Assembly: GCA_028284395.1 (NCBI GenBank)
Contig: JANQRV010000257.1
Coordinates: 1 to 64,000 of the forward strand
Length of the DNA stretch: 64,000 bases
DNA from: Saprospiraceae bacterium
GTDB lineage: Bacteria > Bacteroidota > Bacteroidia > Chitinophagales > Saprospiraceae
Direction: 5' to 3'
Shown here: positions 1,493 to 57,296 of the stretch, one piece after another
Layout: each line of letters starts with the position of its first letter
Numbering within the stretch: the stretch's first letter is position 1
Notes under the pieces: model-generated
What the model was told of the DNA's origin: nothing
What the model saw: only the letters and a program-made list of their open reading frames with translations
Databases searched by the model: none
Translations under genes and position numbers: made by a program

Positions 1493-2998
1493 ATGAATCA
1501 GTCTTTTAACCTACCAACTGAGACGCTTCTAAATCATATGCTGGCCAAAGCCAGTCGCAAATATCGATTAGCTATTCTGCTCATGGCCGACGCCGGTGGC
1601 CGGGTACTGGAAACCGTCCGGCTCAAATCGGCCGACCTTGACTTCCAAAAGCGTTTGGTCACTTTCAATGCTGGGAGTGAAATTCGAAGTCGTCAAATTC
1701 CAATGACCGACCGACTCTTCGATGCTGCCATTGATTATTGGACACATCGAGATACCAAGGCCAAATCCGAATACCTATTTGCTCCGGCAGAAAGCAACCA
1801 TCGACCTTATCTGAGTCGTAAAATGATCAATAGACAGGTGGAAAGGCTTAGCAGTGGACAAACCACACCCTCTGCCCTACGCGCATACTACATCTACCAA
1901 GTCTGCCAAGCCAATGAAGATCTGCTCATCATCTTTCAACTCACCGGTCTGAATAAGCCAGACCTCATCTATAAATACAAAGAACTGCAACATACTCAAC
2001 TACACAATGCCCTTGAACTCACCGAACCCAAGGTCGGTCTGCTACAAAAAGTTATCCGCCAGTTCCAATCGCCCCGGACCGTTCCCATCATCCCCATGCA
2101 GGTCGGTATGACCAAGTTCCACATCGGCCGTAAAGCGGAAATCGCTCAAATCACGGAGCTTAGTCAGAAGAAAGTCAACATCCTGCTCCTCGGCCCCATG
2201 GGCATTGGCAAATCGCATCTGTTGGACAATTATAAATCCGGCACCAACTCCAACATCATCCGCCTCGACGATTTTCGGCAACCCAAATCCGTTATGACCG
2301 GCCTGCTGCTCGCCCTCTTCAACGACGACAAGCAAGCCATCATGGAAGTGCTCAAAAAAGTCAACAACGAATCGGACTTAGAAAAGGTAGCTACCAAACA
2401 CAGTGCCCGGCGCCTGTGCCAGGTTGCCATTCAAGCCACGCCCCACAAAGGCTACACCATCCTCATCGACGATCTGACCAACATCACCAAGATCGGCGTC
2501 GAGATTGTCGAAAAACTCAAAAACCACTTTCACATCATCGCAGCGGCCCGGTACCTCAAAATTGAATACGCCAATTGCGTATCCAACTTCGAGAAGCTGG
2601 AGTTACCGCCCCTTAATCGACCGGAAACCCTCGAATTCATTGACCAACTCAGCGAACCACTGGAAGCCCGCATTGAAGACTATCAGCTATTCCAAAACCA
2701 CATCTGGGAAGAGACCCAAGGTAACCCGCTTTACATCCTTGAATTAATCGAACGACTGGATAAAGAGCACATCCTTTCCAATGATATCGTGCGGGGCATC
2801 AAGCATGCCATTTCCCGACAGGAGATTGATTTTAGTGTGCCTTTGATTATTGCTTTTTCTTCTCTTTTGGTGTTGCGGTATTTGGGTAATGAGTTGGGGT
2901 CTAATGCTGGGGCTTTTCGGTTATTGGGTGGAATAGCACTGGTCATTGCCTTTTTCTCCCGTAGGATTTTCAGAGCTCTTCGAAGAAGATATGTCTAA
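1493..2998 (+). CDS. Tyrosine-recombinase-like domain fused to P-loop ATPase with C-terminal membrane anchor
   Basis: This 501-residue protein has three parts. Residues about 10-165 follow the catalytic-domain layout of phage-type integrases: the arm with the first Arg (DAGGRVLETVRL, R37), a beta-hairpin (LVTFNAG then RQIPM), the second Arg in TPSALR (R130) and a Tyr near IYKYKEL (Y160 or Y162). The usual His before the second Arg is Ser (S127), and the G-H motif near residue 152 reads TGL, so the active site looks degenerate. Residues about 210-430 form an ATPase with Walker A GPMGIGKS (234-241) and Walker B TILIDD (322-327). Two hydrophobic helices follow (about 449-462 and 475-488), then an Arg-rich end (RRIFRALRRRY). 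The gene is 11 bp before the YdjM-like gene. The domain reading is mine from motifs. A role in DNA targeting or sensing at the membrane, rather than active recombination, is inference. Confidence 0.7.
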   Translation: MNQSFNLPTETLLNHMLAKASRKYRLAILLMADAGGRVLETVRLKSADLDFQKRLVTFNAGSEIRSRQIPMTDRLFDAAIDYWTHRDTKAKSEYLFAPAESNHRPYLSRKMINRQVERLSSGQTTPSALRAYYIYQVCQANEDLLIIFQLTGLNKPDLIYKYKELQHTQLHNALELTEPKVGLLQKVIRQFQSPRTVPIIPMQVGMTKFHIGRKAEIAQITELSQKKVNILLLGPMGIGKSHLLDNYKSGTNSNIIRLDDFRQPKSVMTGLLLALFNDDKQAIMEVLKKVNNESDLEKVATKHSARRLCQVAIQATPHKGYTILIDDLTNITKIGVEIVEKLKNHFHIIAAARYLKIEYANCVSNFEKLELPPLNRPETLEFIDQLSEPLEARIEDYQLFQNHIWEETQGNPLYILELIERLDKEHILSNDIVRGIKHAISRQEIDFSVPLIIAFSSLLVLRYLGNELGSNAGAFRLLGGIALVIAFFSRRIFRALRRRYV

Positions 2999-3009
2999 AA
3001 CACAATGCC

Positions 3010-4374
3010 ATGAGATCACCCAATCATGTTGTCGGAGGATTTGTATTTACCGGTATTCTCGCCAGTCTGTCTGGTGTGAATCCATTTGCTACCCCTATGG
3101 CCATGACCACTATGCTGGTCGGAACCATTCTACCGGATATTGACCATCCCAAATCGGTGGTAGGAAGAACTTTCTGGCCCCTTTCCATTTGGATCAATCG
3201 AAACTACGGACATCGAACCATTACCCATAGTGGCATCGCTTTGGTAGTATTGACCATCACCATTTGGTTAATAGAAAACCTAGTTAGTTCAAGCTCAAAA
3301 CTTACTTTGATCTTTTGCTATAGCTACACTTCGCATTTGATCCTGGATATGATGACTTTGCAGGGCATCCCCCTACTCTACCCTTTTTACAAGAATGCCT
3401 TTGTCATTCCGGGCAATCCGGCCTTTCGAATTCAAACCGGCGACAATAAGAGTGAGACCGTCATCTTTTGCTTCTTGCTGTTGGCAGGGATGTCTTTAAA
3501 GCCACTCTTTGCTAATGGTTTTTGGACCAGTTACAACCGGTTGTTTGGCACGATGACGCATTTGGCGGCGGAGTTCCAACGATCGGAGGACTTGTTAGAG
3601 GTGGCCTACTTTGGTCGATTGGGCACGGAGACTTTCGAGGGTAAAGGTTATTGCCTCAGCGCTTCCGACAATCGGGCAGTATTATTGGAGAATGGTCAAT
3701 TCAGGATTTTGGACCGAAATAACACGGTGATTACAAAAGTCATTCCTTCTCATTCCGGACGGGAGTTAAAGTATGAGACCAGGCGTTTTGTGATGGCACC
3801 GGTGGATAGTTTGAATCGGTGGTTGGCGGGCAAGGCGCTGGCTAATTTGGAAGTATCAGCCAATCGGGAATTTCGGTTTCATCATAACCTGGTTTCTTCC
3901 CGGCAGACTTACATCAAGGAGCAATTTTTGACGGAGGTTTGGTTGGAGGTAATTCCGATACCACTGCCGCAAGTCGTTACTCCCGATACTTTTTTTGACC
4001 AAGTTAATCCGAGGATCTTGATCCTTTCCCATCAGTTGGAGGCTTTGCAGCGACAGCAGCGGGAGAAAGCGAAGCAATGGGGCTTGCATACTCAGCTGCT
4101 ACAAGCAACGCAAAAGATGACTTTGGAGGAAAGCGATGTCGTACAACAAGAGCAGCTTTATGAGACCTATCAGCGGCTATTGAAAGTCAAACCACCGAAG
4201 ATGGAAATCGAACGGATTAAGGCGCTTGAACTGGAGATCCAACAATTACAACAAATCACTCGGTTGAAAAATCGGGAGAGGCGGATTTTGGCATTGCAAA
4301 AACGGCAAACGCCTCCGCTACCGGCTCCTACTCGCTTCACCGGTTCTTTCACCTTTATCAAAATCTCCGACTGA
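3010..4374 (+). CDS. YdjM-like (DUF457) inner-membrane protein with coiled-coil C-terminal extension
   Basis: Residues 1-175 resemble the YdjM/DUF457 family of membrane-bound putative metal-dependent hydrolases: N-terminal NHVVGG, the GTILPDIDHP motif, then GHRTITHS and a later SHLILDMMT. These His and Asp residues are the family's presumed metal ligands, and several hydrophobic segments surround them. Typical members are about 160-200 residues. Here about 270 extra residues follow, with a beta-rich part and a long charged coiled coil (about 340-430, many Gln, Glu and Lys) that should lie outside the membrane. It sits 11 bp after the recombinase-ATPase gene and 30 bp before the TolC-like gene, so one operon is likely. 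Family members occur both on chromosomes and on mobile elements. The substrate is unknown. Confidence 0.7.
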   Translation: MRSPNHVVGGFVFTGILASLSGVNPFATPMAMTTMLVGTILPDIDHPKSVVGRTFWPLSIWINRNYGHRTITHSGIALVVLTITIWLIENLVSSSSKLTLIFCYSYTSHLILDMMTLQGIPLLYPFYKNAFVIPGNPAFRIQTGDNKSETVIFCFLLLAGMSLKPLFANGFWTSYNRLFGTMTHLAAEFQRSEDLLEVAYFGRLGTETFEGKGYCLSASDNRAVLLENGQFRILDRNNTVITKVIPSHSGRELKYETRRFVMAPVDSLNRWLAGKALANLEVSANREFRFHHNLVSSRQTYIKEQFLTEVWLEVIPIPLPQVVTPDTFFDQVNPRILILSHQLEALQRQQREKAKQWGLHTQLLQATQKMTLEESDVVQQEQLYETYQRLLKVKPPKMEIERIKALELEIQQLQQITRLKNRERRILALQKRQTPPLPAPTRFTGSFTFIKISD

Positions 4375-4404
4375 CGGACCGTCAGACCGGGCAAGTAATA
4401 GACT

Positions 4405-4974
4405 ATGAAAATATTACTGTTATTGACTTTTATGCATGCGGATTCTTTACCTCCTTTGGAAGTGCTGTATGCTTCTATTGACAGTTTTTATGCCGTTAAA
4501 GTCCAAGCGGAATTGGCGGAATATCAGATTTCTAAAAAAGGCGAGTGGTTGAAGTATGTGCCGACCGTGGGCTTGACGTATACTTTGGATGGGCGGCCCA
4601 GGCCGGCAATTTCCTTTTCTTCCAGTGTGATTTATCGGGCTAAAAAGGGTCGGCAGTTGATTGTTGGGAAACGGCGCCGGATCATAGCCACCAATCGATT
4701 GGCGGCAGCGGCGGAAAAAGCTAAAGTCAAATCGCTCCATCTTGCGTACTACCGGGCTTTGCAGGAGTTGGCCTTACAGGAGGAGCTCTTTGAAATTGAT
4801 CGGCAATTATTTGAAATGGATCGGGGTCGGTATGAGCGGTTGGAAATGGCGCCTAGTGACTTTTTGAAGGCTAAGCGCCAGTTCTTATTGAAGAAACAGG
4901 AAATGAACACGTTGAGGATGGAGATTATTTCTAAAAGGGACAATATTTACGAAATAGTCTATTTGAAAGGGTAG
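4405..4974 (+). CDS. Short TolC-like outer-membrane efflux-family protein
   Basis: The 189-residue product has a short signal peptide (MKILLLLTFMHA), then helical segments and one beta-hairpin-like stretch (KYVPTVGLTYTLDGRPRP) followed by a second helical pair with many Glu, Leu and Arg. This is the half-repeat plan of TolC-type proteins, which normally have two such halves and over 400 residues. A single half is unusual. It could be a degraded copy or a dedicated small protein that assembles with itself. It is the last gene of the 866-4974 series and is followed within 6 bp by a hairpin. Family assignment rests on pattern only. Confidence 0.5.
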   Translation: MKILLLLTFMHADSLPPLEVLYASIDSFYAVKVQAELAEYQISKKGEWLKYVPTVGLTYTLDGRPRPAISFSSSVIYRAKKGRQLIVGKRRRIIATNRLAAAAEKAKVKSLHLAYYRALQELALQEELFEIDRQLFEMDRGRYERLEMAPSDFLKAKRQFLLKKQEMNTLRMEIISKRDNIYEIVYLKG

Positions 4975-4979
4975 AAAAG

Positions 4980-5008
4980 TTTCGTGTCTTGGTGAGACCA
5001 CCACGAAA
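4980..5008 (+). terminator. Hairpin after the TolC-like gene
   Basis: Arms TTTCGTG (4980-4986) and CACGAAA (5002-5008) pair, with an inner GTCT/AGAC pairing possible. It starts 6 bp after the stop codon at 4972-4974. There is no T-run behind it, so intrinsic termination is uncertain. A second small dyad, TGGTAA/TTACCA with a 4-nt loop, lies at 5043-5058. Confidence 0.3.
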
Positions 5009-5093
5009 TGACATAACCGGTTTGCTTTCAAGCATAAGGGCATGGTAATCTTTTACCAGGTGTCGTTTTAGCTGCCGGTTTTAAGAAATAAGA

Positions 5094-5339
5094 TTAAATC
5101 CATGATTGGTCAGATACTTTTATCTGGCTTTTTCTTTTTGTGCCTTTTGTAATCAGGTCAGCCGGTGCTACATCCAGGATCTCAGCAATTTTTATCAATT
5201 CCCCCAAATGCGGTTGACTCCGGTTATTGCACCAACCATTGACAGTGGCAAATGTAAAACCCAATTGCTCTGCCAGCCAAGTCTGTGACTTTCCTTGGTT
5301 CTACATATTGGACATGTTTTATCTGACCAAATTTCCCAT
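5094..5339 (-). pseudogene. XRE-family helix-turn-helix regulator with two in-frame stops
   Basis: Read on the minus strand from an ATG at 5337-5339, the frame gives MGNLVR, a TAA stop, NMSNM, a TAG stop (5301-5303), then 68 intact codons to TAA at 5094-5096. The intact part begins NQGKSQTWLAEQLGF and contains VNGWCNNRSQPHL and LIKIAEILDV. It is the standard Cro/CI-type HTH of short Bacteroidota XRE regulators, whose N-terminal helix should be where the two stops are. No start codon follows the second stop in a usable place. It looks like a regulator killed by nonsense mutation, sitting next to an IS remnant. Confidence 0.65.
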
Positions 5340-5399
5340 TAAAACTGCAAAGAAATTCTGTTATCTTTATTTTATTTGTATTAATTACATAAATTCCCG

Positions 5400-5540
5400 A
5401 TGAGCGAAGTGAAAGGACTCAAAATAAGACCTGAAGACACCAGAACATTGTTGCCAATTGGCAATAACAATCTTTTAGCTATTGCCATTCAAAAATATGA
5501 CATCTTTACCCAACTTCACAACTGTATGTTGATTTGCTGA
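5400..5540 (+). CDS. 46-residue open frame, possibly a 5' gene fragment
   Basis: The frame starts MSEVKGLKIRPEDTRTLL and ends at TGA 5538-5540, divergent from the broken XRE gene. Its last codons run into the IS3-type transposase remnant in a different frame, so it may be the start of a host gene cut by that insertion. No family is recognised. Confidence 0.3.
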   Translation: MSEVKGLKIRPEDTRTLLPIGNNNLLAIAIQKYDIFTQLHNCMLIC

Positions 5541-5814
5541 CCGAAAGAAAAGTACAGATTAGTATGGACGGAAAAGGGCGGTCATTGTTGATAACATTTT
5601 CATTGAACGATTCTGGAGAAGCACCAAGCAGGAATATGTCTACCTCAATCCTCCAAAAGGTGACAAGCAATTCTATGACGGCTTGGAAGAATACTTCAGA
5701 TTTTACAATTACGAAAGGGGCTATTAATCTCTGGATTATGCCACCCCATCTGAAGTCTATTTTGGCAGAAAAGTCATTTTTTTAACACCTAAATATTCAA
5801 CTGCTCCTGTTTAA
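5519..5814 (+). pseudogene. IS3-type transposase C-terminal remnant
   Basis: The conserved C-terminal part of an IS3-type DDE transposase can be read in two frames. From 5519 it reads QLYVDLLTERKVQ then ISMDGKGR. After a single-base frameshift near 5587 it continues with DNIFIERFWRSTKQEYVYL (which carries the catalytic Glu region), EEYFRFYNYERGY, an in-frame TAA at 5725-5727, and SLDYATPSEVYFG, ending at TAA 5812-5814. The N-terminal part, the first two catalytic Asp residues, orfA and the terminal inverted repeats are not seen. It is therefore a dead fragment, not a functional insertion sequence. Confidence 0.75.
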
Positions 5815-5936
5815 TAATGGGAGGTAAGCATCAACAACCGTATGCAAAATTATGCTGTATCCATTCAAGTCATGCCTGGTCTAAAGGAAGCCAAATTGCT
5901 GATCATACCTAAATATGTCCTATCTTAAACATTCCA

Positions 5937-7058
5937 GTGACGAATCCTTACAAAATATTATTCACGATTGCCCTTGTAGTCTTATTTGGACTTACCCTTG
6001 GACTATTTTTACCGGGATTCATTCACTTCCATGGCGAAGCATTTTGCGAGCATGAAATTGTTCTTCGATTACCCAATCATGCTAAGGACTTGCTGACCGA
6101 ATTCGAAGCCTCAGAAACGCGTCGAAATCAAAAATTAAAGTACATCGATAGCCTTTTCTTCAGTGGGCTAAACCCCAAATCAGATTCTCATGATGCTGCC
6201 TTTCTACTCGAAATCCGGGCTGAGTTACAAAACGAATTGGATGTAGCGGAGCCACCCATAAAGACAACAGGTTATTATTTTAGCAGCTTAATGATCCTTT
6301 GGCCGACGATTTATACTTGTTTGGGATTGTTACTTTTTGTCATCCCTCCACCAGGCCAACAGTTCAAGCTTCAAAATGTAAATGTCAAGAGGACAGGGTT
6401 AATGATTCTTATTTTCTTTCCTCTTTACCGCTGGCCAACCTGGTTCAGAAACTTATGGTTCGGTGGTGAAGAGGCGGGCAGAACGGTTTATCATTACGCC
6501 AATTTTGATATAGCCGCTTATGGTTTTTTTCTGCAGGAATTTATGACCCTAATAGTTTGTCTATTGCTGGTTCTTATCTGGCAACAGTGGGTGAATTTCT
6601 ACCTTGAAAGGCGAGATGAATTGAGCTTGTCAGTTAGTAGAAATATCGCCAATGCATTAGACAAGGGATCATCGGAAAAATTATCAAGAACTTATGTCCA
6701 TTGGCAGATAGCATCTCTCCTTTTGGCTATCGGGTTTCTTATATACACACGATTCTTCTGGGATCAAATAGTAGGAAATGGGGATCAGCGTTACCTACTT
6801 CATGCCATCATTGTTCACTCCATATGGGCACTTACATGGCTTATTATTTCTCTTCCTTTGATCATTACTTGGCAAACCTGGCTTATTACTAGAAACAAGG
6901 CTTTTGCAGAACTAGGGAAGAATTCGGAATTATATGATGAAATAGTAATGCAAGCTTTATTAGCCATAAAACCAATCGGGTTTTGGAATGCCGCCACATC
7001 CGGCATCGTGGCGATGTTTTCTTTTGCACTTCCCCTTTTAGAACAATTCTTCAAGTGA
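5937..7058 (+). CDS. Polytopic membrane protein of unknown function
   Basis: The 373-residue frame starts with GTG at 5937. The product has a first membrane helix (about residues 8-28), a soluble loop to about residue 110 with HGEAFCEHE and charged helices, then about six more hydrophobic segments (about 113-133, 150-165, 195-215, 260-280, 290-312 and 350-370). The loop after the first helix is probably periplasmic. No family is recognised. It is followed after 266 bp by the CHAT lipoprotein gene on the same strand, so shared function is possible but not shown. The start could be one of the nearby codons, as no clear ribosome-binding site decides it. Confidence 0.7.
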   Translation: MTNPYKILFTIALVVLFGLTLGLFLPGFIHFHGEAFCEHEIVLRLPNHAKDLLTEFEASETRRNQKLKYIDSLFFSGLNPKSDSHDAAFLLEIRAELQNELDVAEPPIKTTGYYFSSLMILWPTIYTCLGLLLFVIPPPGQQFKLQNVNVKRTGLMILIFFPLYRWPTWFRNLWFGGEEAGRTVYHYANFDIAAYGFFLQEFMTLIVCLLLVLIWQQWVNFYLERRDELSLSVSRNIANALDKGSSEKLSRTYVHWQIASLLLAIGFLIYTRFFWDQIVGNGDQRYLLHAIIVHSIWALTWLIISLPLIITWQTWLITRNKAFAELGKNSELYDEIVMQALLAIKPIGFWNAATSGIVAMFSFALPLLEQFFK

Positions 7059-7324
7059 TATCCTTGGTGGCATTTCCGTTGTAGATTTGATAAACATATT
7101 TCTCGTCCAATAGCCTTTTGGCAATGCTAATTACAAAACGACAAATTGATGATGTTTTTGATCTAATTGTAGCTAATTTTATATAACTTTTTTAGCTTCT
7201 GTCTCAATATCTCCTTTCCCAAGTTGCCCATCAACTTTCTTTCTCATTCCTGTTGCAATATCAGGTACTGTTTTTAAGCACCCTCAAATAGTATTATTAC
7301 TAGAAATCATCATAACCCTTACTT
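7059..7324. other. Intergenic region before the CHAT lipoprotein gene
   Basis: It holds one TAGATTTG match to the Bacteroidota -7 promoter consensus (TAnnTTTG) at 7082-7089 on the plus strand, without a well-spaced -33 box. On the minus strand a short frame ending near 7180 contains ATGMRKKVDGQLGKGDIE, which looks coding-like and may be a gene remnant I cannot identify. Confidence 0.25.
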
Positions 7325-10300
7325 ATGAAAAAGATCCTATTTCTATTATTATCTGGGACTATATTCCTATTCTTATCGGGATGCCAGCGGGATTCAATCG
7401 ATAGTCTAATTCATAGCGATACTGATTCAGAACTGCTTTTCATGCAGGGAAATTATGAAAAAGCATACAATTCATATTCTCAATTATGGATTGCCAGAGA
7501 TTCATTAGAATTAACGGAAGAATATTCGGTTCGAATATTAAAGAGGCTTGGAATAATAGCTTCAAATTTAGGTAAATACCAAGAAGCAATTTCTCATTTA
7601 AATATGGCGGACAGTCTTGCTGGAGCTTATTTGGAGAAGAGAGATCCAGAACTGATCGACATTAGAATTTGGTTGGCCTCAGTCAAATATGATCAAGGAT
7701 ATGGGCAGTTGGCCAAGGTCATGATTGATAGTATTTTGGAAGAATTCAAAGGGGAGCGGCATTATTACCTGGCCAACGCTTATGATTTGTTGGCCTTCTA
7801 CTTAGGTGAAAGAAAACAATTTGATGCATGCAAAGCAAAAATTATTCAGGCTGAAAAAATGAGAAGGAACGCCCCAAAAATTGAACGCTATAAGGATGCT
7901 CTGCATTGGGGGATCTACTATCGCGAAACCGGTAAATACGCCAAAGCAATGGATGCATTCGAACGCTGTGAAAAATGGATACAGCGCTATAATGTAAACC
8001 CAATAAAAAAATCGACATTACTACAGAACAAATCTTTACTGAAATATCATCAGCAGGCCTATGATGAAGCTTTAATTTACTTGGAGCAGGCACTATCCCT
8101 CCTACCTGAGTACGTCGGATCTTACAGCATTCACAGTGTAATTACCTTGGGGGATATCGCAGATATCCATCGAGAAAAAGGGGAATGGGACGAGGCAATT
8201 GAAATTTACCACAGGCTAATTGATTTAGTAAAAAGTAACACCCCCGAACGACATGCTGTTCTGAGTGGTCTATACCAAAACCTGGGCGCAACAAAGCTTT
8301 CGGTTGGCGAAATAGATTCTACTAAAATTTACTACACAAAGGCACTCACTGCATTAGACCCGTTAAAACCATTCGATGCTTACGCTAAACGTTATTGGTA
8401 CGTTATCCAGTTTAATCTAGCCAATTTATTATTGAACGTTTATCCCTACCAAAGTGAGGAGGCCATTTCAAAATATAGTATACTGATCGATAGTTTGACA
8501 AAAGACTACGGCCCAAATAGCCTCATGTTAGTCCCTAGCCTGATTAATAAAGGACTGGCTTACCAGGACCTGGAAGATTATGAACAATCGGACCTGATCT
8601 TTCAAGAGGGGCTGGATATACTAGATATGAAGTCGAGAGATACGACAGATTTCCCAAAGTGTCGCAATGCAGCCTATGCCTTAAGCGCACTCCAAAATCA
8701 AGCCGAATCTCACTTTTTGATAGCTTATCGAAATAAGGGGGACCTAGAGCTTTGGCTTAGAGCAAACAAAGACTACAAGTATGTGATGGATTTTATCGAT
8801 TACCTCAGAGGGCAGTACAATGGAGAATTCGCAAGGATCAACCTTACCGGCCGGTACAAGATGATCTTTGAACGTTCCATCTTGATCAACTCAGAACTAT
8901 TCAAGATGACCAATGATAAAATCTATCAGCAAAATGCTTTCGCTGCAGCTGAGAAAAGCAAAGCCTTGGCATTACTAGAGCATTCCCGGAAAAACCTTGC
9001 CGACCAAAATAAAAGTCGAAAATCATCAACAATATTTACAAAGGAAAGAAAATTGAGGTCTGAAGTCAACCAGTCAGAACTTATTTACTTCCAATCTCTA
9101 ACAGTGCCCGCGCCAGATCTTTCATTTGAGCAAAAAAGCCGAGACGCATTGATCAAAAAGAGAGAGCAACTTTCAAAATTCCTGGATAAGCACCGCAACA
9201 AACCCGGGTTCAAAGATTATTATCATGCTATCTACGAACCCGAAAATAGGCCAGCTAAAGAATTGCAATCCTTATTAAAGGAACAAAACTCTACGCTCGT
9301 CGAGTATTTTCTCGGTAATCAAAGTGATTTTGCAATCGTAGTCACGTCCGATGATATTTTTGTCCAAGAATTGTCTTTTTATACTGATGAACTGGCTGCT
9401 GAAATTGATAGTATACATGCTTACGTTAGCACATATCCGTCAACAAACTCCTTGGAAAAAGTCGAAAGCTTCGTAGCAGCAGCGAAAGGTGCCTATGACA
9501 AAGTACTCAAACCAATCATCAACCGCATTGAAACCGAAAGAGTTGTCATTATTCCTGATGAAGTTCTAACCACCCTCCCGTTTGAAGTCTTATTAGATAC
9601 CATTCCAAAGCATCTCGACAATTATCAGACTCTTCCATACTTGGTTAAAAAGCACACGATTTCCTATTGTTTTTCAGCTAACATGCTGTGGGAGATGCAA
9701 AGGGCAATGAATTATCCCAAAAAACGCAGACCATTCATTGGTGTTGCTCCAAATTACAATGGTGAGCATCTCGCCATACCAGATGGCTCCTCTAATCCGA
9801 AAGAAAAAATCATCCTCAGTCAATTCGTTGACAATCAAATATATGCAAAAAACATAAACAACACTTTATTCAAGGGAATATCATTACTATCGAATGAAGC
9901 AACCAAACAAAATTTTTTAAAAAAAGGTCGAGATGCTAAAATCATCTTTTTGCCGGTTCATGGAGAAATCTATCAGGGAGATGGTGATTATTCGTGGCTT
10001 GCTTTTCAACCTGAAGGTGACTTCGGGTCTACTTTCTTGACGCTGAAAGAGCTTTATCATTGGAGGACCCAAACCGATCTGGTTGCTGTACCTGCGTGCA
10101 AAACCGCTAACGGAACATTTATGAACGGCGAGGGTTTAATCAGCATTGGCCGAGGATTCGCTTATGCTGGCGCCAAAAGCATTGTTTGTTCGATGTGGAA
10201 ATCAAAGGAGTCTTCCACGATGAAATTTTTTGATGTCTTTTTCAAGCGAATAGTGGACGAGGTACCAAAAGACGAGGCACTAACTATTGTCAAACGGGAT

Positions 10301-10399
10301 ATACTAAACCCCCGGACTCGTAACGATATTGACCCACATCCCTATTATTGGGCATCTTTCATAGCCATTGGGGATATGAGTCCGATTGTGAGTAATTGA
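7325..10399 (+). CDS. TPR-CHAT protease, predicted lipoprotein
   Basis: The 1024-residue protein begins with a lipoprotein signal (MKKILFLLLSGTIF, lipobox LSGC with C20), so it should be exported and lipid-anchored. Residues about 40-480 are divergent TPR helices. A linker with the EKSKALALLEHSR motif typical of TPR-CHAT proteins lies near residue 555. The C-terminal third is a CHAT (caspase-HetF associated with TPRs) domain with the presumed catalytic His in LPVHGEIY (H879) and Cys in VAVPACKTANG (C925). It lacks the MORN-like N-terminal module of the seven paralogues at 22.8-46.9 kb, so it is a separate branch. It converges on the sigma factor/membrane-protein pair at 10439-11859, an association that may be functional. 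Substrate unknown. Confidence 0.9.
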   Translation: MKKILFLLLSGTIFLFLSGCQRDSIDSLIHSDTDSELLFMQGNYEKAYNSYSQLWIARDSLELTEEYSVRILKRLGIIASNLGKYQEAISHLNMADSLAGAYLEKRDPELIDIRIWLASVKYDQGYGQLAKVMIDSILEEFKGERHYYLANAYDLLAFYLGERKQFDACKAKIIQAEKMRRNAPKIERYKDALHWGIYYRETGKYAKAMDAFERCEKWIQRYNVNPIKKSTLLQNKSLLKYHQQAYDEALIYLEQALSLLPEYVGSYSIHSVITLGDIADIHREKGEWDEAIEIYHRLIDLVKSNTPERHAVLSGLYQNLGATKLSVGEIDSTKIYYTKALTALDPLKPFDAYAKRYWYVIQFNLANLLLNVYPYQSEEAISKYSILIDSLTKDYGPNSLMLVPSLINKGLAYQDLEDYEQSDLIFQEGLDILDMKSRDTTDFPKCRNAAYALSALQNQAESHFLIAYRNKGDLELWLRANKDYKYVMDFIDYLRGQYNGEFARINLTGRYKMIFERSILINSELFKMTNDKIYQQNAFAAAEKSKALALLEHSRKNLADQNKSRKSSTIFTKERKLRSEVNQSELIYFQSLTVPAPDLSFEQKSRDALIKKREQLSKFLDKHRNKPGFKDYYHAIYEPENRPAKELQSLLKEQNSTLVEYFLGNQSDFAIVVTSDDIFVQELSFYTDELAAEIDSIHAYVSTYPSTNSLEKVESFVAAAKGAYDKVLKPIINRIETERVVIIPDEVLTTLPFEVLLDTIPKHLDNYQTLPYLVKKHTISYCFSANMLWEMQRAMNYPKKRRPFIGVAPNYNGEHLAIPDGSSNPKEKIILSQFVDNQIYAKNINNTLFKGISLLSNEATKQNFLKKGRDAKIIFLPVHGEIYQGDGDYSWLAFQPEGDFGSTFLTLKELYHWRTQTDLVAVPACKTANGTFMNGEGLISIGRGFAYAGAKSIVCSMWKSKESSTMKFFDVFFKRIVDEVPKDEALTIVKRDILNPRTRNDIDPHPYYWASFIAIGDMSPIVSN

Positions 10400-10438
10400 T
10401 CAGAAAAGAGTATTGCATTGTAGAGACTTTAATTTGAA

Positions 10439-11260
10439 CTATAACCGCTCTCTTAGTATAAGAGCTTTTTGGTAATACAAATGATTTTCCGTGGCCAAAA
10501 TAGACTGAAGCAGTGCTTCGAATGATTGTTCATATTTTTCAAGGTTAGATGAGTAGGCCAAAAGAAGGGCCCACTCAGCTTTTTGTTGTTGGCTGGTAAT
10601 TTCAGAAATTGACAAATAGTCTTTGAACAGATTGATAGCAGTATCATATTTTTCGAGGGCAAAATTAGCGTGTGCTAACAACTGACGACTGGTTAAGTAT
10701 TGCTCTCCCGTAAATTGCCGCCTTCCCAATGTATCAATTACCTTTTGATAGGAAGCACTCATAAACTGTTCGCCGGCTGCCTTTAGCAGATCGATTCCAT
10801 CACTTCCCGCCCCCATGGTATTGGAAAAATCCGGTTTTTCATAGAAGTCCTCTATCAAGCTGGCGACGACAGGCTGCTCTAAGGCAGGTGGATGGGGTAT
10901 TTCTGGTTTGTTTCGTTTCGTCCATAGATATTTGACTGCGAATCCAACAATGACCAGCAACAATACTAGGCCAATCACAAAACGCTTGTCTGAAAAAATA
11001 CTTCTTTTTTTCTGCCAATCTAATTCCCTTTCCTTTTCCCAATCCTCCATCTTTCTTCTGGTTGTTCTTACCAGCGTCTTACCAATTTCCAACTCTATCT
11101 GTTGCAATTGTAGTTCCGAAGCCCATTTATCGTCAATGCCGATTCTCGCTTCAACGGCTGCCGCCGCTTCTTCATCCAATTGACCTTGGACATACCGAGA
11201 CAGAATCAATTGCATCTCTTCTTCCGATTGAATCAGGTCTATATTGAATTTTCCAGTCAT
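10439..11260 (-). CDS. Single-pass membrane protein with TPR-like C-terminus, possible anti-sigma partner
   Basis: The 273 residues have a cytosolic N-terminal part (about 1-90) with a short acidic helical segment (SRYVQGQLDEEAAAAVEARI) reminiscent of zinc-free anti-sigma domains. One membrane helix follows (about 92-110, VIGLVLLLVIVGFAV), then a periplasmic Pro-rich linker and TPR-like helices (about 155-270). Its start overlaps the stop of the sigma-factor gene by 4 bp (ATGA, 11257-11260), indicating translational coupling. By position it is the natural regulator of that sigma factor and could pass a periplasmic TPR-sensed signal inward. The zinc-binding His/Cys set of ZAS anti-sigma factors is not visible, so the role is inferred from context. 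Confidence 0.75.
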   Translation of the reverse strand: MTGKFNIDLIQSEEEMQLILSRYVQGQLDEEAAAAVEARIGIDDKWASELQLQQIELEIGKTLVRTTRRKMEDWEKERELDWQKKRSIFSDKRFVIGLVLLLVIVGFAVKYLWTKRNKPEIPHPPALEQPVVASLIEDFYEKPDFSNTMGAGSDGIDLLKAAGEQFMSASYQKVIDTLGRRQFTGEQYLTSRQLLAHANFALEKYDTAINLFKDYLSISEITSQQQKAEWALLLAYSSNLEKYEQSFEALLQSILATENHLYYQKALILRERL

Positions 11261-46934: not shown

Positions 46935-49319
46935 TTATGTGCTATGCAAAAAGACCTTGCAAGTAGGTGTCAATCCCGAATACATCGATTTTGAGGGGTC
47001 CGGCAAGCCAAAGAGCAGCATCTGTCCATCTGCCCACCGGAAAGGCAGTTGAGTAAATAGCCCTGTGGTAAAATCTAAGGCATATGGCACTGGAGTACCT
47101 TGAACTTCCAACTTTACGGAAGGAAAGTTGATTCTAAGTGGCATAGTGTTGTTGATCACATCTTGTTGAATTAGCTCAAAAAACGCCAGAACACTTACTC
47201 CTTCTGATCTATGATATCCTTCAGCCAGCAGAAATGGCTCGAAAAAAGCACCATTTTCCAAACTCATATTTACTGGTGCCATCATCCCATGCGTAGCCTC
47301 TTCGAAAGAACAGAACATCAACTGCCCTGAAAATGATTGCGGCGCCTGGACCGTCAATCCCAAACCAGAGATAGCTTTTCCTCTGGAGAGTGGTTCAGTA
47401 ATCCAGGGTCGGCGTACCTTTAGGCAAATCTCTTGGGTGATCCAGTTCGTGTATCGAATTTGTAAAGGGTCGGGCTGATCTCTCAGTCCTTCTACTACCT
47501 CCATCCGGGGAACACCGGCCTGATTGTAATCATCCGTATTCAACTCCGTTCTGGATAAAAACAACTTGAGGTAGTCTGCTGTCTCTGTAACGCCCAAATC
47601 GTGATAAGCATCTGCGATTTGCAATGGAATGGTGCGATACGGATGGTCCTTGAAAATGTCTTCTGCCCATTGTTCTTCACCTGGTTGAAGTTCTCGTTTG
47701 GGCAGCAATTGATTGGTAATACCAAAATGGTCATCCATAAATAGCAGGCTGACCCAGAGATTATGCCGCCCCATATTTTTGATCTTTAGCCGAAAAGCAG
47801 GATGATGCCATTTGCCTCCAGATAAAACATAAGGTAAATGCACTGGTCCATTCAAAGGGACCAATTCGGCGGGAGCATCATCGGTGTAATTGCCAGGTTC
47901 AGAGATTCGATAAAGGCTGATCTCGAAATCGTCCTCCGTTATGGTACTATGTGGATTGGTCAATTCCAATACCTGTTTCCACTTGGCCATTTTTTCGACT
48001 TTGCCTATAAAGTCTTCCAGTTTAGAAATGTCCAACTGCTTAAAAAGAGGTTTTTGGCTGGACTTAAAATTCAAGCTAAGTCCGGCCTTTTCAGCAAGGA
48101 TCGAATATTCTCCTGCCTCAGGGTCGGTAGACAGCTCTATAACTTTGGATGGTGATTGTAACAATGTTCCTTTAATGGTACGACCTATTTCAGGATCGCC
48201 GTTTGGGTCTATTGCAATTGGCACTAAGGGGCTGGCTAGACTCACTAACTCAGCCTGATATATTTGTTTATGATCTAGTGTTCCAGATCCTGCTAATACT
48301 GCATGCGTGGGGTGTACTTCAACCACAGCCAATCTTATCCGTGAATCCAGTAATTCGAACACTGTCTCCGTAACATCATCTCCTAATTTAATACCGTCAA
48401 TCGCGCCTGCATTGACCGTCCATTCACCATTTTTTTGACGGCTAACCAGGTAGGTTTTCTTCTCGGCTAGGTGTTGGCCGTCCAGGAATTTGCGGCGTGT
48501 ATCTTCCTGGTGTATGACATCGATTTGAGGTGACTGTTTAGGTACCAGATTTGAGACACGCAAATTGACCCGGTCCATGATCCGGGCATATGATAGTGGC
48601 TGACCGCTGTTTTGCAGAGTCTCAATGAGACTGTAGCTAAAGACACCTCTCGGCTGTCGTTTGCAATAGACTTCTTTGGCTGTTTCGGTAGATTTGGCAG
48701 CAGATAGTAGTACATGCCGAGCTCTGGGAGGACTCAAAGCACCGTCCTCTCCTTTTTTGTAATGCTCAATACCCAAGTAGCTTTCCAAAGTCTTTCCTTT
48801 GGTATTGGCTTTCGCCATTCTGACTGCCTCATATACCGGCAAATCGTCGGGGTCAATCCTGGTATTTAAACCGGAATAGCAACAATCCATAATGACAACA
48901 AAATGAACATCCTTGTTTTTTGTGGCTTCCCAAATCAAGTAAGATAATTCTTTGTCGACCAAGTCTTCGCCGTCCTTGATTCGGCTATCCCAGCAGACAA
49001 GGGTTTGTAGTTTATGGTCGGATTCTAAATGCCAAAAGGCTTCCGGAGCAGGGATGCGCGATCCATGGCCTGCGAAATAAAACAGGCAGCTATCTCCATC
49101 TTTTGCTTCTTTATAATGTTCGAACGCCTCAATAATCTGGTCCTTTGTGGCAGCCTCATCTTTCAAAATTTTGGGCTGGTATTCAATTCCTTGCTGCTCC
49201 ATGTAATGCTCCAAATATTGATGGACTGCTTGAAGGTCATTGAGGCAACCACGCAACCGGTGCTCACGCCTGGGGTAGTTGTTGATTCCAATTAGTATGG
49301 CATATAGTTTTTTCGTCAT
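46935..49319 (-). CDS. Caspase-fold (peptidase C14-like) protein with long C-terminal region
   Basis: 794 residues without a signal peptide, so likely cytosolic. Residues 1-290 form a metacaspase-like domain: YAILIGINNY at the start, GCLNDLQA near residue 25, the catalytic His in FYFAGHGSR (H85) and Cys in IMDCCYSG (C147, in the DxCxSG form), and later PRGVFSYSLIETL. The remaining about 500 residues have no recognised enzyme motif. One part (RLKIKNMGRHNLWVSLLFM) resembles the beta-sandwich DUF4384-type extensions of bacterial caspases. It heads the minus-strand array, with a possible promoter box 21 bp upstream, and is divergent from the two-component genes. Arg/Lys specificity typical of metacaspases would be expected, by analogy only. 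Confidence 0.92.
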   Translation of the reverse strand: MTKKLYAILIGINNYPRREHRLRGCLNDLQAVHQYLEHYMEQQGIEYQPKILKDEAATKDQIIEAFEHYKEAKDGDSCLFYFAGHGSRIPAPEAFWHLESDHKLQTLVCWDSRIKDGEDLVDKELSYLIWEATKNKDVHFVVIMDCCYSGLNTRIDPDDLPVYEAVRMAKANTKGKTLESYLGIEHYKKGEDGALSPPRARHVLLSAAKSTETAKEVYCKRQPRGVFSYSLIETLQNSGQPLSYARIMDRVNLRVSNLVPKQSPQIDVIHQEDTRRKFLDGQHLAEKKTYLVSRQKNGEWTVNAGAIDGIKLGDDVTETVFELLDSRIRLAVVEVHPTHAVLAGSGTLDHKQIYQAELVSLASPLVPIAIDPNGDPEIGRTIKGTLLQSPSKVIELSTDPEAGEYSILAEKAGLSLNFKSSQKPLFKQLDISKLEDFIGKVEKMAKWKQVLELTNPHSTITEDDFEISLYRISEPGNYTDDAPAELVPLNGPVHLPYVLSGGKWHHPAFRLKIKNMGRHNLWVSLLFMDDHFGITNQLLPKRELQPGEEQWAEDIFKDHPYRTIPLQIADAYHDLGVTETADYLKLFLSRTELNTDDYNQAGVPRMEVVEGLRDQPDPLQIRYTNWITQEICLKVRRPWITEPLSRGKAISGLGLTVQAPQSFSGQLMFCSFEEATHGMMAPVNMSLENGAFFEPFLLAEGYHRSEGVSVLAFFELIQQDVINNTMPLRINFPSVKLEVQGTPVPYALDFTTGLFTQLPFRWADGQMLLFGLPDPSKSMYSGLTPTCKVFLHST

Positions 49320-54338: not shown

Positions 54339-55249
54339 AATATATAATTGTCATCACAATAATCTTATTTACTGTCATGAGTTCCGACGCTCAAACCAAA
54401 TCCTACTGGGCGGAAACGTCTACAATTGATCGATTCATACTCATCGAGAATGGTATAGAAAGAACGGTTCCAACAGTGAAGAGCAATCAATCCTTTCACT
54501 TTTCCTGTGATCCAAAAGTCTCAAAAATCCGATTAGAATGTAGCAGGTGTAAAGAAACTGTTTCTATTAAATTAATTAGCGAAGATGAGGACGCTGCAAC
54601 TAGGACTATAAAACTCGAGAAAAATCACAATCCCATAGCGATTAAAGAGCTTTTTCAAAATCCTTCAAAGCCCATACTTTCCTCAATTTTCGATACATTT
54701 CGGAAAGCCTTTCAAGAGTATTTTCTTCCGACCGCAAATGAAGAAAGGGTCGCGATTAAAAGGGCTCCAGCATTAATGGGGGCCGAGGATCCAAAAGAAA
54801 ATGACCCAAAGTTATCGTTTTCTCTAACGGACTTCGCACATTTTCTCACAACAAAAGATTTTGAACTCAGATTCACGGTTCACGAAAACTTTCCAATTAA
54901 TTCAATTTACATTATTAAGAAAAAGAAGCCGGGAGAAAAATTAAGATTGCTACTTTATGGAGGGAAGTACCAGCTCATTGAAAATCTATTCTCGGATTTT
55001 GCAGGAAAGGGTATTCCAATTACAAAAATCGTGGAGCAAATTGACAAGCAAGACAACAATTTAATTTACCAAATTAGGTGGCAAACCTTTTTGGAGTATT
55101 TAGCTGAAAACATCGATCAAGAAGGCTCTTATCAGCTGGGCATCAATTTGGGAGCCGATATATCAGATCATAACCCCTATTTGTTTAATTTTAGTTTTTA
55201 CAGTGATACCGAATTAGATGAAGTAGAAAAATTTCTCGATGGCCAATAA
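54335..55249 (+). CDS. Exported protein of unknown function, coupled to CHASE2 and CHAT-nSTAND genes
   Basis: 304 residues with a signal peptide (MKYIIVITIILFTVMSSDAQ). The mature protein has a Cys pair (IRLECSRCKETVS) in an N-terminal beta domain, a helical middle (ILSSIFDTFRKAFQEYF), then a second beta-rich part with YIIKKKKPGEKLRLLLYGGKY. No family recognised. It overlaps the upstream gene by 4 bp and the downstream gene by 11 bp. The tight coupling implies that the three products act together, with this one in the periplasm next to the CHASE2 sensor domain. Confidence 0.8.
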   Translation: MKYIIVITIILFTVMSSDAQTKSYWAETSTIDRFILIENGIERTVPTVKSNQSFHFSCDPKVSKIRLECSRCKETVSIKLISEDEDAATRTIKLEKNHNPIAIKELFQNPSKPILSSIFDTFRKAFQEYFLPTANEERVAIKRAPALMGAEDPKENDPKLSFSLTDFAHFLTTKDFELRFTVHENFPINSIYIIKKKKPGEKLRLLLYGGKYQLIENLFSDFAGKGIPITKIVEQIDKQDNNLIYQIRWQTFLEYLAENIDQEGSYQLGINLGADISDHNPYLFNFSFYSDTELDEVEKFLDGQ

Positions 55250-57296
55250 ACCTCCTGTCATCTTTCTGGCCTTTGCCAATTATCATGAAGGTTCTTCTGG
55301 TTACCTACGCAACCTCCCAGAAGAAACTTTAGGGATCGAGCGAGTATTGGAAGAAGCCTCGCAAGCAGGTCTATGTGAATTAGTAGTGAAGACTAACGCG
55401 ACCATTAAGGAAATTATACGTGTCTTCCAAAGACCGGTGTACAAAGACAGGATCGCTATTTTTCATTTCGGCGGCCACGCCAAATCTTACGCCCTACAAT
55501 TGGAAAACCCCTTTCGTGGCAAAGACCTTGTCTACCCAAAGGGGTTTTCCTCCTTTCTCGGGGCACAAAACAATCTAAAAGTAGTCTTCCTCAATGCCTG
55601 TGTAACCGCTGATCAGGCAAAAATGGTTCGCAAAGAGGGTATCCCTGCTGTTATCTCGACCAATGATTATGTAGATGATGGACTCGCAAGGGATATCGCC
55701 GTCAATTTTTACACTTTTCTGGGCCTTGGCGACCCTTTGGAGAAAGCCTATAATCAGTCCATAGATATAATCAAAACCACACGCAAGACCGATAATCCTC
55801 GGTCCCTATACGCTAGAATTTCCCAGGCCAGGGACCAACTTCCTTGGCAATTCAACTTTGACCCAGAGGAGCCGGATATCAAAAAATGGAATCTTCCACT
55901 GGTTTCAGAAAACCCACTTTATAACATACCAAATCTTCCAGATTTAGCCTTGCCACGAGAACCATTTCCCGGTCTGGAGCCCTACACTGCTTCTCACGCC
56001 ACGGTTTTTAAAGGTAGAGACTATGACATTAGAGACGTTTATCAATTGCTCACACAAAAGAGTTTCCAGTCTGCAACGTTACTTTGGGGAAGCAATGGCG
56101 TCGGTAAAACCTCCCTGCTTTTGGCCGGGTTGATACCAAGGCTGGAAGACACACACCAGGTGACCTACATAGATTGTTCCAAAGACCCTTCCTTCGGGAA
56201 ATCCATTGAAAAGCAAGTGCAGGCTTTTCTGTCCAAACCAAGAAAAGAAAATGAAAAGGACTCAGACCAACTTTTCATCATCGTCCTTGATCATAATGAG
56301 GCTCCTAATAAAGAAGAGCTAAATACTGTGTTGAACCAGTGTAGAGGTCAAATCAAACTTCGGATCGTATTTTCGCTTAGACCTAAATTTCTGAAGGATT
56401 ACGAAAAGCTATTGTCTAGCCAAGATTTTCAGACACAGGGTTATTATCTCGGTACATTGCAGGCCAATGGTATAGCCCAAATCTTAAATCAATTTGATGG
56501 TGATGAATTTTATCGTGCTACGATAGGGCCAAAATTGGCGAACAGATTACACAGTTTTCTTTCCATTGATTCTCGGTCTTCCATAACTACTCCCCTTCAG
56601 ATCATCCTGCAACATCTTTGGAAAACAGCAAAGAGCAAAAGCTATCACGCCCCCAATTTAACGGTAGATCTCTTCGAAGAAAACATCAATGAAAAGTTCT
56701 GGAGAACCTATATTCGAGAGCAACTTAAGCTAGTAGATCTAGAAAAACTCGAATCCGGCCTGTCCTTGAATTTCCTCTATGATAGTGCCCAATCAAAAGA
56801 CAAAACTCAGGATCAATTGGCCCATCAATACAATCACATAAAGGATACTCCAACCTTTATCCAAAAGCTATTTCAGTATCACCTGATCAGCGATCCCGCT
56901 ACTGATAAACTCGAGGAAACGACAAAAATACGTCTGGTGCACAGCGCACTGACCATCCCCGTATTAAACCTCAATAACGAATCCCAGTTAGCCGGTCAAC
57001 AAGCTCGACGGACCATTACCTACACATTAAATAATCGTCCTCCAAAAGCTTATCTCGGGACAGCAGAATTGCAGTTGGTCAAAACCGGCAAAATGGCCAT
57101 GCCTGCATTGACTCCACCAGAAGAGGAACTGGTTCAAAGAAGCACCTCTATTCATGAAAGGAAGAAGAAGCGAAAGAACCGGATCATGATCTTCAAAATA
57201 ATTACTGCTATTCTATTGATTGGCTTTGGTACTCAATTGAATGATCCTTATTTGTTGCTTTATATTTTGTTGATTGTTATTCTTTATGATGGGTAG
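55239..57296 (+). CDS. CHAT-nSTAND ATPase with C-terminal membrane segments
   Basis: 685 residues without a signal peptide. The N-terminal CHAT domain (about 5-200) has the presumed catalytic His in FHFGGHAKSY (H80) and Cys in VFLNACVTAD (C121). A GLEPYTASHATVFKGRDYDI motif (about 245-264) is the entry sequence of novel STAND NTPases. It is followed by Walker A GSNGVGKTS (284-292) and a Walker B-like LFIIVLD (345-351). A helical region with winged-helix-like segments reaches about 600. A basic stretch (HERKKKRKNRIM) and two hydrophobic helices form the C terminus. CHAT is N-terminal here, opposite to the array proteins. STAND ATPases are typically signal-switched oligomers. Membrane tethering next to a CHASE2 receptor suggests signal relay, which is inference. 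Confidence 0.9.
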   Translation: MANKPPVIFLAFANYHEGSSGYLRNLPEETLGIERVLEEASQAGLCELVVKTNATIKEIIRVFQRPVYKDRIAIFHFGGHAKSYALQLENPFRGKDLVYPKGFSSFLGAQNNLKVVFLNACVTADQAKMVRKEGIPAVISTNDYVDDGLARDIAVNFYTFLGLGDPLEKAYNQSIDIIKTTRKTDNPRSLYARISQARDQLPWQFNFDPEEPDIKKWNLPLVSENPLYNIPNLPDLALPREPFPGLEPYTASHATVFKGRDYDIRDVYQLLTQKSFQSATLLWGSNGVGKTSLLLAGLIPRLEDTHQVTYIDCSKDPSFGKSIEKQVQAFLSKPRKENEKDSDQLFIIVLDHNEAPNKEELNTVLNQCRGQIKLRIVFSLRPKFLKDYEKLLSSQDFQTQGYYLGTLQANGIAQILNQFDGDEFYRATIGPKLANRLHSFLSIDSRSSITTPLQIILQHLWKTAKSKSYHAPNLTVDLFEENINEKFWRTYIREQLKLVDLEKLESGLSLNFLYDSAQSKDKTQDQLAHQYNHIKDTPTFIQKLFQYHLISDPATDKLEETTKIRLVHSALTIPVLNLNNESQLAGQQARRTITYTLNNRPPKAYLGTAELQLVKTGKMAMPALTPPEEELVQRSTSIHERKKKRKNRIMIFKIITAILLIGFGTQLNDPYLLLYILLIVILYDG

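Follow-up and report, generated by a model that had tools for sequence, protein, structure and literature searches.

The window analyzed here comprises the first 64,000 nucleotides of a 94,574-bp contig (C619) of a Saprospiraceae bacterium and carries three closely spaced genes near its left end. The first, F0 (1493–2998, + strand), is an open reading frame with an ATG start codon that encodes a protein of 501 aa, made up of a recombinase-like domain, a STAND/AAA-type ATPase and a C-terminal membrane hairpin. F2 (3010–4374, +), encoding a YdjM-type multi-TM metal-hydrolase-like domain with a long C-terminal part, starts 11 bp after F0. A further 30 bp on lies F1 (4405–4974, +; 189 aa), the product of which is probably a secreted one-repeat outer-membrane-efflux-like protein.

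The first domain of F0 (1523–2017, residues 11–175, as delimited by PF00589 and the family table) is a catalytically degenerate tyrosine-recombinase domain. Residues 11–152 match the Pfam profile PF00589 (Phage_integrase) with an E-value of 1.9e-11 and 44.5 bits against a cut-off of 27.1, and the same profile was found in 35 out of 35 aligned family members. A sequence search of PDB returned XerC-like 4a8e (E = 2.8e-7) and XerA 5hxy (E = 0.0017). At the sequence level the likeness to recombinases is far above chance. An earlier note on this DNA had described a degenerate integrase-type layout, and all of its elements were confirmed: R37 and R130 are kept together with a candidate tyrosine (Y160/Y162, of which Y162 aligns with the Tyr column of the family), Ser127 occupies the box-II His position (P126-S-A-L-R130-A), and the G-H pair is gone, with LTGL present where the family has LLGH. 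The beta-hairpin lysine, which lies in SLKKR in the relatives, is also missing. The R-K-H-R-H-Y catalytic set is thus incomplete in F0, being without K, the box-II H and G-H. Family members begin just before the catalytic domain and have no counterpart of the N-terminal SAM-like domain found in Xer proteins. Matches to the NCBIfam XerC, XerD and XerA equivalogs span only the catalytic half of these two-domain proteins; in the case of XerA, F0 scored 43 bits and an intact relative 123.9, both below the cut-off of 220. The AlphaFold model of F0 has a pLDDT of 60, and since most of the second half of the recombinase part is below 50, the assignment of this domain rests on sequence profiles. The likeness to a recombinase fold is accordingly borne out by PF00589 and the PDB sequence matches and not by Foldseek, for which the 50 listed matches of the model were all ATPases and included no tyrosine recombinase.

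The STAND/AAA-type ATPase of F0 (2105–2827, residues 205–445) contains a Walker A motif, read directly as GPMGIGKS (2192–2215, residues 234–241), and the Walker B motif ILIDD. Pfam matches to AAA_16 (2.9e-5, 25.1 bits against a cut-off of 32.6), AAA_22, ATPase_2 and NB-ARC were all below the cut-offs; AAA_16 matched at E≤0.01 in 34 out of 35 family members. The best PDB folds for the model were CED-4/NLR STAND, clamp-loader/ORC and MuB ATPases, with low TM-scores; CED-4 was the top Foldseek match, but with a query TM of no more than 0.35 and at the overall model confidence given above. The protein ends with a hydrophobic hairpin and a basic tail (2828–2995, residues 446–501; 96% identical to a paralogue in the same genome). 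Hydropathy exceeds 1.6 at residues 447–465, and a second, weaker segment and then the basic tail follow. At least one such hydrophobic segment was found within the last 70 residues in 37 of the 42 family rows. Direct fusion of a degenerate recombinase to a membrane-anchored ATPase, with Walker A/B motifs, two C-terminal hydrophobic segments and a basic tail, had been proposed earlier, and PF00589, the Walker motifs and the hydrophobic C-terminus bear it out, the second segment being weaker than the first.

F2 matches PF04307 at 1.4e-29, and the presence of this domain in 26 out of 26 F2 relatives places them in the YdjM family. The C-terminal part of F2 is beta-rich and then coiled-coil in a low-confidence model (mean pLDDT 51), which is a weak hint. 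In one relative, the F2 of genome G415, contig C76 (L098:10884-12716), the YdjM-type protein bears a C-terminal staphylococcal-nuclease (SNase) domain (5e-24). Window F1 reached only 10.6 bits with PF02321 (OEP), below the cut-off of 22 (E = 0.5); 10 out of 20 F1 relatives gave an OEP match at E≤0.5, the best being 7.7e-8. A second full module is present in the same genome on contig C617, its F0 being 74% identical to that of the window in the ATPase part and 40% in the recombinase part. F2 lies on the same stretch as F0 in 34 out of 38 family loci (the four exceptions are short or edge-cut contigs) and F1 in 19 out of 38. On the IMG/VR contig IMGVR_UViG_2788499961_000004 (L103:6113-7676) the recombinase half and the ATPase half are encoded by separate neighbouring ORFs, with F2 upstream, and this represents either a frameshift or an unfused form.

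Elsewhere in the window, seven consecutive large, probably secreted TPR-CHAT-like proteins, alike by eye, are encoded in tandem at 22821–46907 (−), and one more such protein is encoded at 7325–10399 (+). One member of the array was confirmed as CHAT by Pfam (1.9e-62). The array adjoins a gene for a caspase-domain protein (46935–49319; PF00656, 2e-21), and the gene at 55239–57296 (+) combines a CHAT-like domain (0.0026, below cut-off) with an nSTAND1 ATPase (5e-16) and C-terminal hydrophobic segments. Beyond the window, C619 contains, as judged by eye, a reverse-transcriptase-like ORF at about 80,054–82,327 and genes resembling a type III-B (Cmr) CRISPR effector set at about 86,000–93,500.

The F0 family was found mainly on Saprospiraceae plasmids. 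About 30 of the 398 Saprospiraceae genomes carry the long fusion; the same genomes gave 171 matches at 1e-20, most of them recombinase-only, and a phylum-wide sample of 395 genomes gave a match at 1e-60 only in the genome of the window itself. Twelve PLSDB plasmids match F0, and all twelve are typed as non-mobilizable. Fusions were found on the Haliscomenobacter hydrossis plasmids pHALHY01 and pHALHY02 and on plasmids of Flavobacterium, Flammeovirga, Spirosoma and Thiospirochaeta, and matches to the ATPase only on plasmids of Methylobacter, Thermus, Allochromatium and Nitrosococcus. Among family loci of 11 kb or more, 17 out of 25 contain ParA- or Rep-like genes (20 out of 38 when loci of any length are counted), compared with none of the 20 control stretches taken from these genomes. 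In genome G042, the two ends of contig C5 (58,417 bp) overlap exactly over 102 bp within the F0 gene, as expected of a circle. Several genomes carry two F0 copies on different contigs, and in H. hydrossis the pair lies on two closed plasmids. The relatives of F0 are thus plasmid genes, which supports the link to mobile DNA made in the earlier note. The window contig has neither a ParA/Rep match nor a terminal overlap; the suggestion that it is a circular plasmid was dropped on these grounds, and its plasmid nature is unproven. Phage origin was also rejected, there being no match in 50,697 phage records; PHROGs matches were to integrase and hydrolase families and one weak ATPase family. A description of the module was not found in the open-licence PMC literature searched, which does not prove its absence from print.

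STAND proteins often serve defence, and the resemblance of the F0 ATPase to STAND folds could point to a sensor or defence protein, a role that had been suggested for F0. The search for known anti-phage systems (PADLOC) gave no match of note (best E 0.016 for F0 and none for the partner genes), and no TPR, WD or effector domain was found in F0 with Pfam. The co-occurrence with ParA/Rep genes and the presence of a separate copy on each co-resident plasmid also argue against this reading, which we consider highly improbable.

The catalytic set is whole in 33 of the 38 family rows covering HxxR; four partial rows out of the total of 42 (G049C160, G049C22, G225C99 and G280C144) were left out. The five dead rows are the window F0, its paralogue on C617, G225C64, G324C3 and G352C2. 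The changes differ between the dead lineages: His is replaced by Ser in one and by Thr in the other, and G-H is changed to G-L or deleted in one and became G-N or G-E in the other. The C617 paralogue is without the GH-Tyr stretch and has 25 gapped columns in the recombinase domain. In the tree of the ATPase part (39 rows, each with more than 200 residues of that part) two changes are required to account for the dead members; well-supported branches force both of them, and trees with a single change made up 0% of 200 bootstrap trees. As judged from this tree, catalysis has been lost at least twice in the family and the loss is secondary. According to the earlier note, its reading would be refuted by homologues that keep the RHRY set whole and are proven to integrate; the 33 rows supply the first half of this, the intact set.

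The lowest recombinase identities relative to the ATPase part belong to exactly the five dead rows (mean z from −3.6 to −1.6, the next row being at −0.9; 37 rows and 496 intact pairs were compared). For three dead pairs, all from the dead lineage that does not include the window, dN/dS was 0.17–0.23 in the recombinase domain versus 0.02–0.03 in the ATPase. Intact pairs gave 0.02–0.11 for the recombinase (11 out of 14 computable) and 0.04–0.10 for the ATPase (10 out of 14 computable). In the window pair dN/dS was saturated for the recombinase, 0.11 for the ATPase and 0.02 for the hairpin, with a high dS. These values indicate that constraint on dead recombinase domains is relaxed yet purifying, and that the rest of the protein is retained. 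Since the ATPase, the membrane part and the partner genes persist after the loss of catalysis, recombination is probably not the core job of the module.

Analysis of the regions upstream of intact F0 genes identified a palindromic 28-bp site of 11-6-11 layout, approximately GGGnGACAnAA-N6-TTnTGTCnCCC. The motif was first seen and then modelled: a matrix was built from eight sites and 34 loci were scanned, each scored with its own group left out, so that the 26 non-training loci are the fair part of the test. The locus-wide best match was located 181–467 bp upstream of residue 30 in 21 out of 34 loci; in two more the upstream site was second best, being outscored by a match elsewhere. The pHALHY02 sequence was cut 134 bp upstream in the matrix scan; it was scored from the whole-genome pattern search, which found its site. 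Overall, the site is present in 24 out of 29 intact loci and in none of the five dead ones. In 13 of the 26 non-training loci the top-scoring match of the whole locus falls at this place, with about one expected by chance (an estimate from locus lengths). With this matrix the site was absent from five intact, mostly distant members (G206, G152 and those of Flavobacterium, Spirosoma and Flammeovirga). The best match of C617 was near the expected place, but its score of 7.6 was within background and it was left uncounted.

In the window, scans of the region where intact relatives carry their site (1093–1492) detected no dif-like site, and the whole 11.15-Mb genome contains no match with up to three mismatches. 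A pattern search of 14 whole genomes at up to two mismatches located the site upstream of F0 in G054 (two), G349 (two), G427, G400 and G353; two matches fell elsewhere than upstream of F0 (G042 C6 and G411 C9). No pattern matches were found in G000, G225 and G324, in which the long family genes are dead. Three matches at three mismatches were found in H. hydrossis, two of them being the plasmid sites. With the pattern reversed as a control, each genome and strand yielded 0 to 10 matches at that laxity, and only strict matches and positions carry weight. The association of the site with catalysis rests on two events, as the dead rows form two lineages.

Comparison of 21 out of 25 sites (excluding G353C48 with its short flank, G447C167 as a near-copy of G368C7, G349C31 with a shifted flank and the weak G401C469) gave 12 pairs in which at least 20 out of 22 arm positions are identical. 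In these pairs arms were 97% identical, spacers 53% and the 15-bp flanks 80% and 94%, and not one pair shared a spacer. The spacers also differ in all four reliable co-resident pairs: pHALHY01/02 (arms 21/22, spacer 4/6, flanks 30/30), G042 C5/C7 (22/22 and 3/6, with F0 99% identical), G054 C116/C88 (21/22 and 3/6) and G349 C20/C31 (20/22 and 5/6). A fifth pair, in G401, has weak sites and was left out of this judgement; the sites of G368 and G447, near-copies from two genomes, have the same spacer. A conserved CCC-n4-CCCC motif lies directly to the right of the site, and the circular contig G042C5, scanned whole, contains a single site. The role of an RNA hairpin or terminator was rejected: pairing between the arms is often imperfect, yet their exact sequence is conserved (see the pHALHY01/02 and G042 C5/C7 pairs), and the sequence downstream is C-rich and not T-rich.

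Spacer divergence is what strand exchange with spacer matching favours, but an operator with an uncontacted middle could drift likewise. The palindrome could thus be an autoregulatory operator and the recombinase-like domain only a DNA-binding regulator of the operon, which would agree with the position of the site upstream of F0, its palindromic arms and the conserved C-rich right flank. Such a role leaves unexplained both the exact 28-bp dif layout and the retention of all catalytic residues in 33 out of 38 rows, and we regard it as quite unlikely.

The dead recombinase domain might also have been repurposed as a tether that still binds a specific site and anchors DNA to the membrane via the ATPase. 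Its open frame is intact and under purifying selection (according to the dN/dS of the other dead lineage), and the window copy still has the two arginines and a Tyr. Against this, the cognate site is absent from both dead lineages, no other part of the protein evolves as fast as the recombinase domain and the paralogue has lost the GH-Tyr stretch, which makes such a tether unlikely. The earlier proposal that the fusion is designed to separate DNA recognition from recombination is not supported, given the secondary nature of the two independent losses and the disappearance of the site; retained specific recognition by the dead domain, the constraint on which is relaxed though purifying, is unproven.

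The explanation that we favour, and hold to be reasonably probable, is that the window F0 is a catalytically dead member of a family of ATPase-fused, membrane-anchored Xer-type plasmid resolvases with envelope partners. Judging from their sequences, intact members are most likely resolvases of this type tied to a membrane ATPase. We infer that an intact member would recombine two copies of the 28-bp dif-like site upstream of its own gene, so that plasmid dimers and other multimers would be resolved at the membrane. The fused ATPase would serve as a regulator or motor, loosely an FtsK-Xer system in one chain, and F0, the YdjM-type F2 and the one-repeat OEP-like F1 would act together, presumably as a complex. 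The window lineage has lost both the catalytic activity of the recombinase and the site, with the ATPase, the anchor and the partner genes remaining under strong selection; here F0 is most likely the ATP-driven inner-membrane part of an envelope module, in which the recombinase domain would retain no more than a structural role or a weak contact with DNA. The maintenance function suggested earlier is supported to the extent that intact relatives resemble plasmid resolvases with a site of their own.

Alternatively, the module could transfer DNA, the recombinase being a MobK-like relaxase and the ATPase, YdjM-type and OEP-like proteins forming an envelope-spanning DNA channel. MobK, a plasmid-borne tyrosine-recombinase-like relaxase, provides a precedent in the description given by PMC8152469. 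No known relaxase explains the twelve plasmid relatives typed as non-mobilizable, and the OEP-like and membrane partners would suit a channel, as would the HerA/CedD-like DNA translocase gene adjoining the ATPase-YdjM pair in Synechococcus, the DUF87 gene in pSYSX, the CHAP gene in Allochromatium and the nuclease genes or fused SNase domain. However, the annotations available for five fusion-plasmid stretches list no T4SS genes next to F0, and the complete catalytic set and the palindromic 11-6-11 site with its divergent spacer are more readily reconciled with strand exchange than with an oriT. Because of this complete set and the palindrome with a divergent middle we prefer resolution over relaxase activity and consider transfer doubtful.

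Unfused sets of ATPase and YdjM-type genes, in some cases with OEP, were found on plasmids of Thermus, Nitrosococcus, Allochromatium, Methylobacter and cyanobacteria. The ATPase resembles F0 residues 209–482 in most of them, with the YdjM gene adjacent or near, and the Thermus set includes a TolC-family one-repeat OEP, this F1 counterpart covering the whole one-repeat OEP model (1.7e-9). Unlike F0, these sets have no fused recombinase; on Thermus pL4C the recombinase is a separate, complete protein that includes a SAM domain. Some of the sets stand next to thermonuclease, HerA/DUF87-type or CHAP genes. Thermonuclease genes lie near the set in Thermus and cyanobacterial plasmids; in Synechocystis pSYSX (4346–10895, L110) and in L073, both plasmids typed as non-mobilizable, genes for the ATPase, the YdjM-type protein and a DUF87/HerA-like translocase stand in a row with a thermonuclease gene nearby. 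Since the ATPase, YdjM-type and OEP-like proteins have outlived recombination in the lineage of the window and, elsewhere, occur with no recombinase fused to them, they are the likely core of the module. The foremost guesses at their joint function are plasmid segregation linked to the envelope and transport of DNA. ATPase-YdjM genes occur on plasmids from five or more bacterial phyla, and most of these plasmids have no typed mobility genes. A bolder reading, tentative and in our opinion rather less likely than not to hold, is that the ATPase and YdjM-type proteins, with a one-repeat OEP in Thermus and Bacteroidota, form an undescribed envelope-spanning apparatus that moves or positions plasmid DNA at the envelope. 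In Bacteroidota it would be fused to its own Xer recombinase, coupling resolution to passage, and the window would hold an apparatus that outlived its recombinase.

If the resolvase explanation holds, the intact fusion would be a natural single-chain counterpart of Xer recombination powered by a membrane ATPase, for which a site is predicted, and natural variants that have lost recombination separate the two activities. Differing spacers on co-resident plasmids would be a simple means of preventing fusion between the plasmids. The analysis also draws attention to the ATPase-YdjM gene set, which has received little notice although many plasmids typed as non-mobilizable carry it.

With tripartite efflux and type I secretion systems the module shares an OEP-like component, and the Thermus F2 C-terminus is weakly similar to DevB/HlyD adaptors (E = 0.0047); it differs in that the three products have no ABC or RND transporter domain, and no adaptor match was obtained for the window protein. 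TcpM is, in addition to MobK, a tyrosine-recombinase-like relaxase. Like these two, F0 proteins are plasmid-borne and recombinase-like, but the family has a palindromic dif-like site in place of a mapped oriT, an ATPase fusion and relatives typed as non-mobilizable. Cre/loxP, ResD and ColE1 cer are known plasmid resolution systems; a plasmid-encoded recombinase and a site adjoining its gene are common to these and to the F0 family, which adds the fusion to a membrane ATPase and the envelope partner genes. The closest parallel in layout is with XerCD/dif-FtsK and single-Xer systems, which likewise combine a tyrosine recombinase, a 28-bp 11-6-11 site and the involvement of a membrane ATPase. The E. 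coli dif, 28 bp in length according to PMC3025954, is described in PMC5052618 as two 11-bp imperfect inverted repeats around 6 bp, and XerD needs the FtsK ATPase. In contrast to XerCD/dif-FtsK, the F0 ATPase is of the STAND/AAA type and not of the FtsK type and is fused to a recombinase without the N-terminal SAM-like domain, and the site of the family is carried on the plasmid upstream of the gene, with the window member being a catalytically dead representative.
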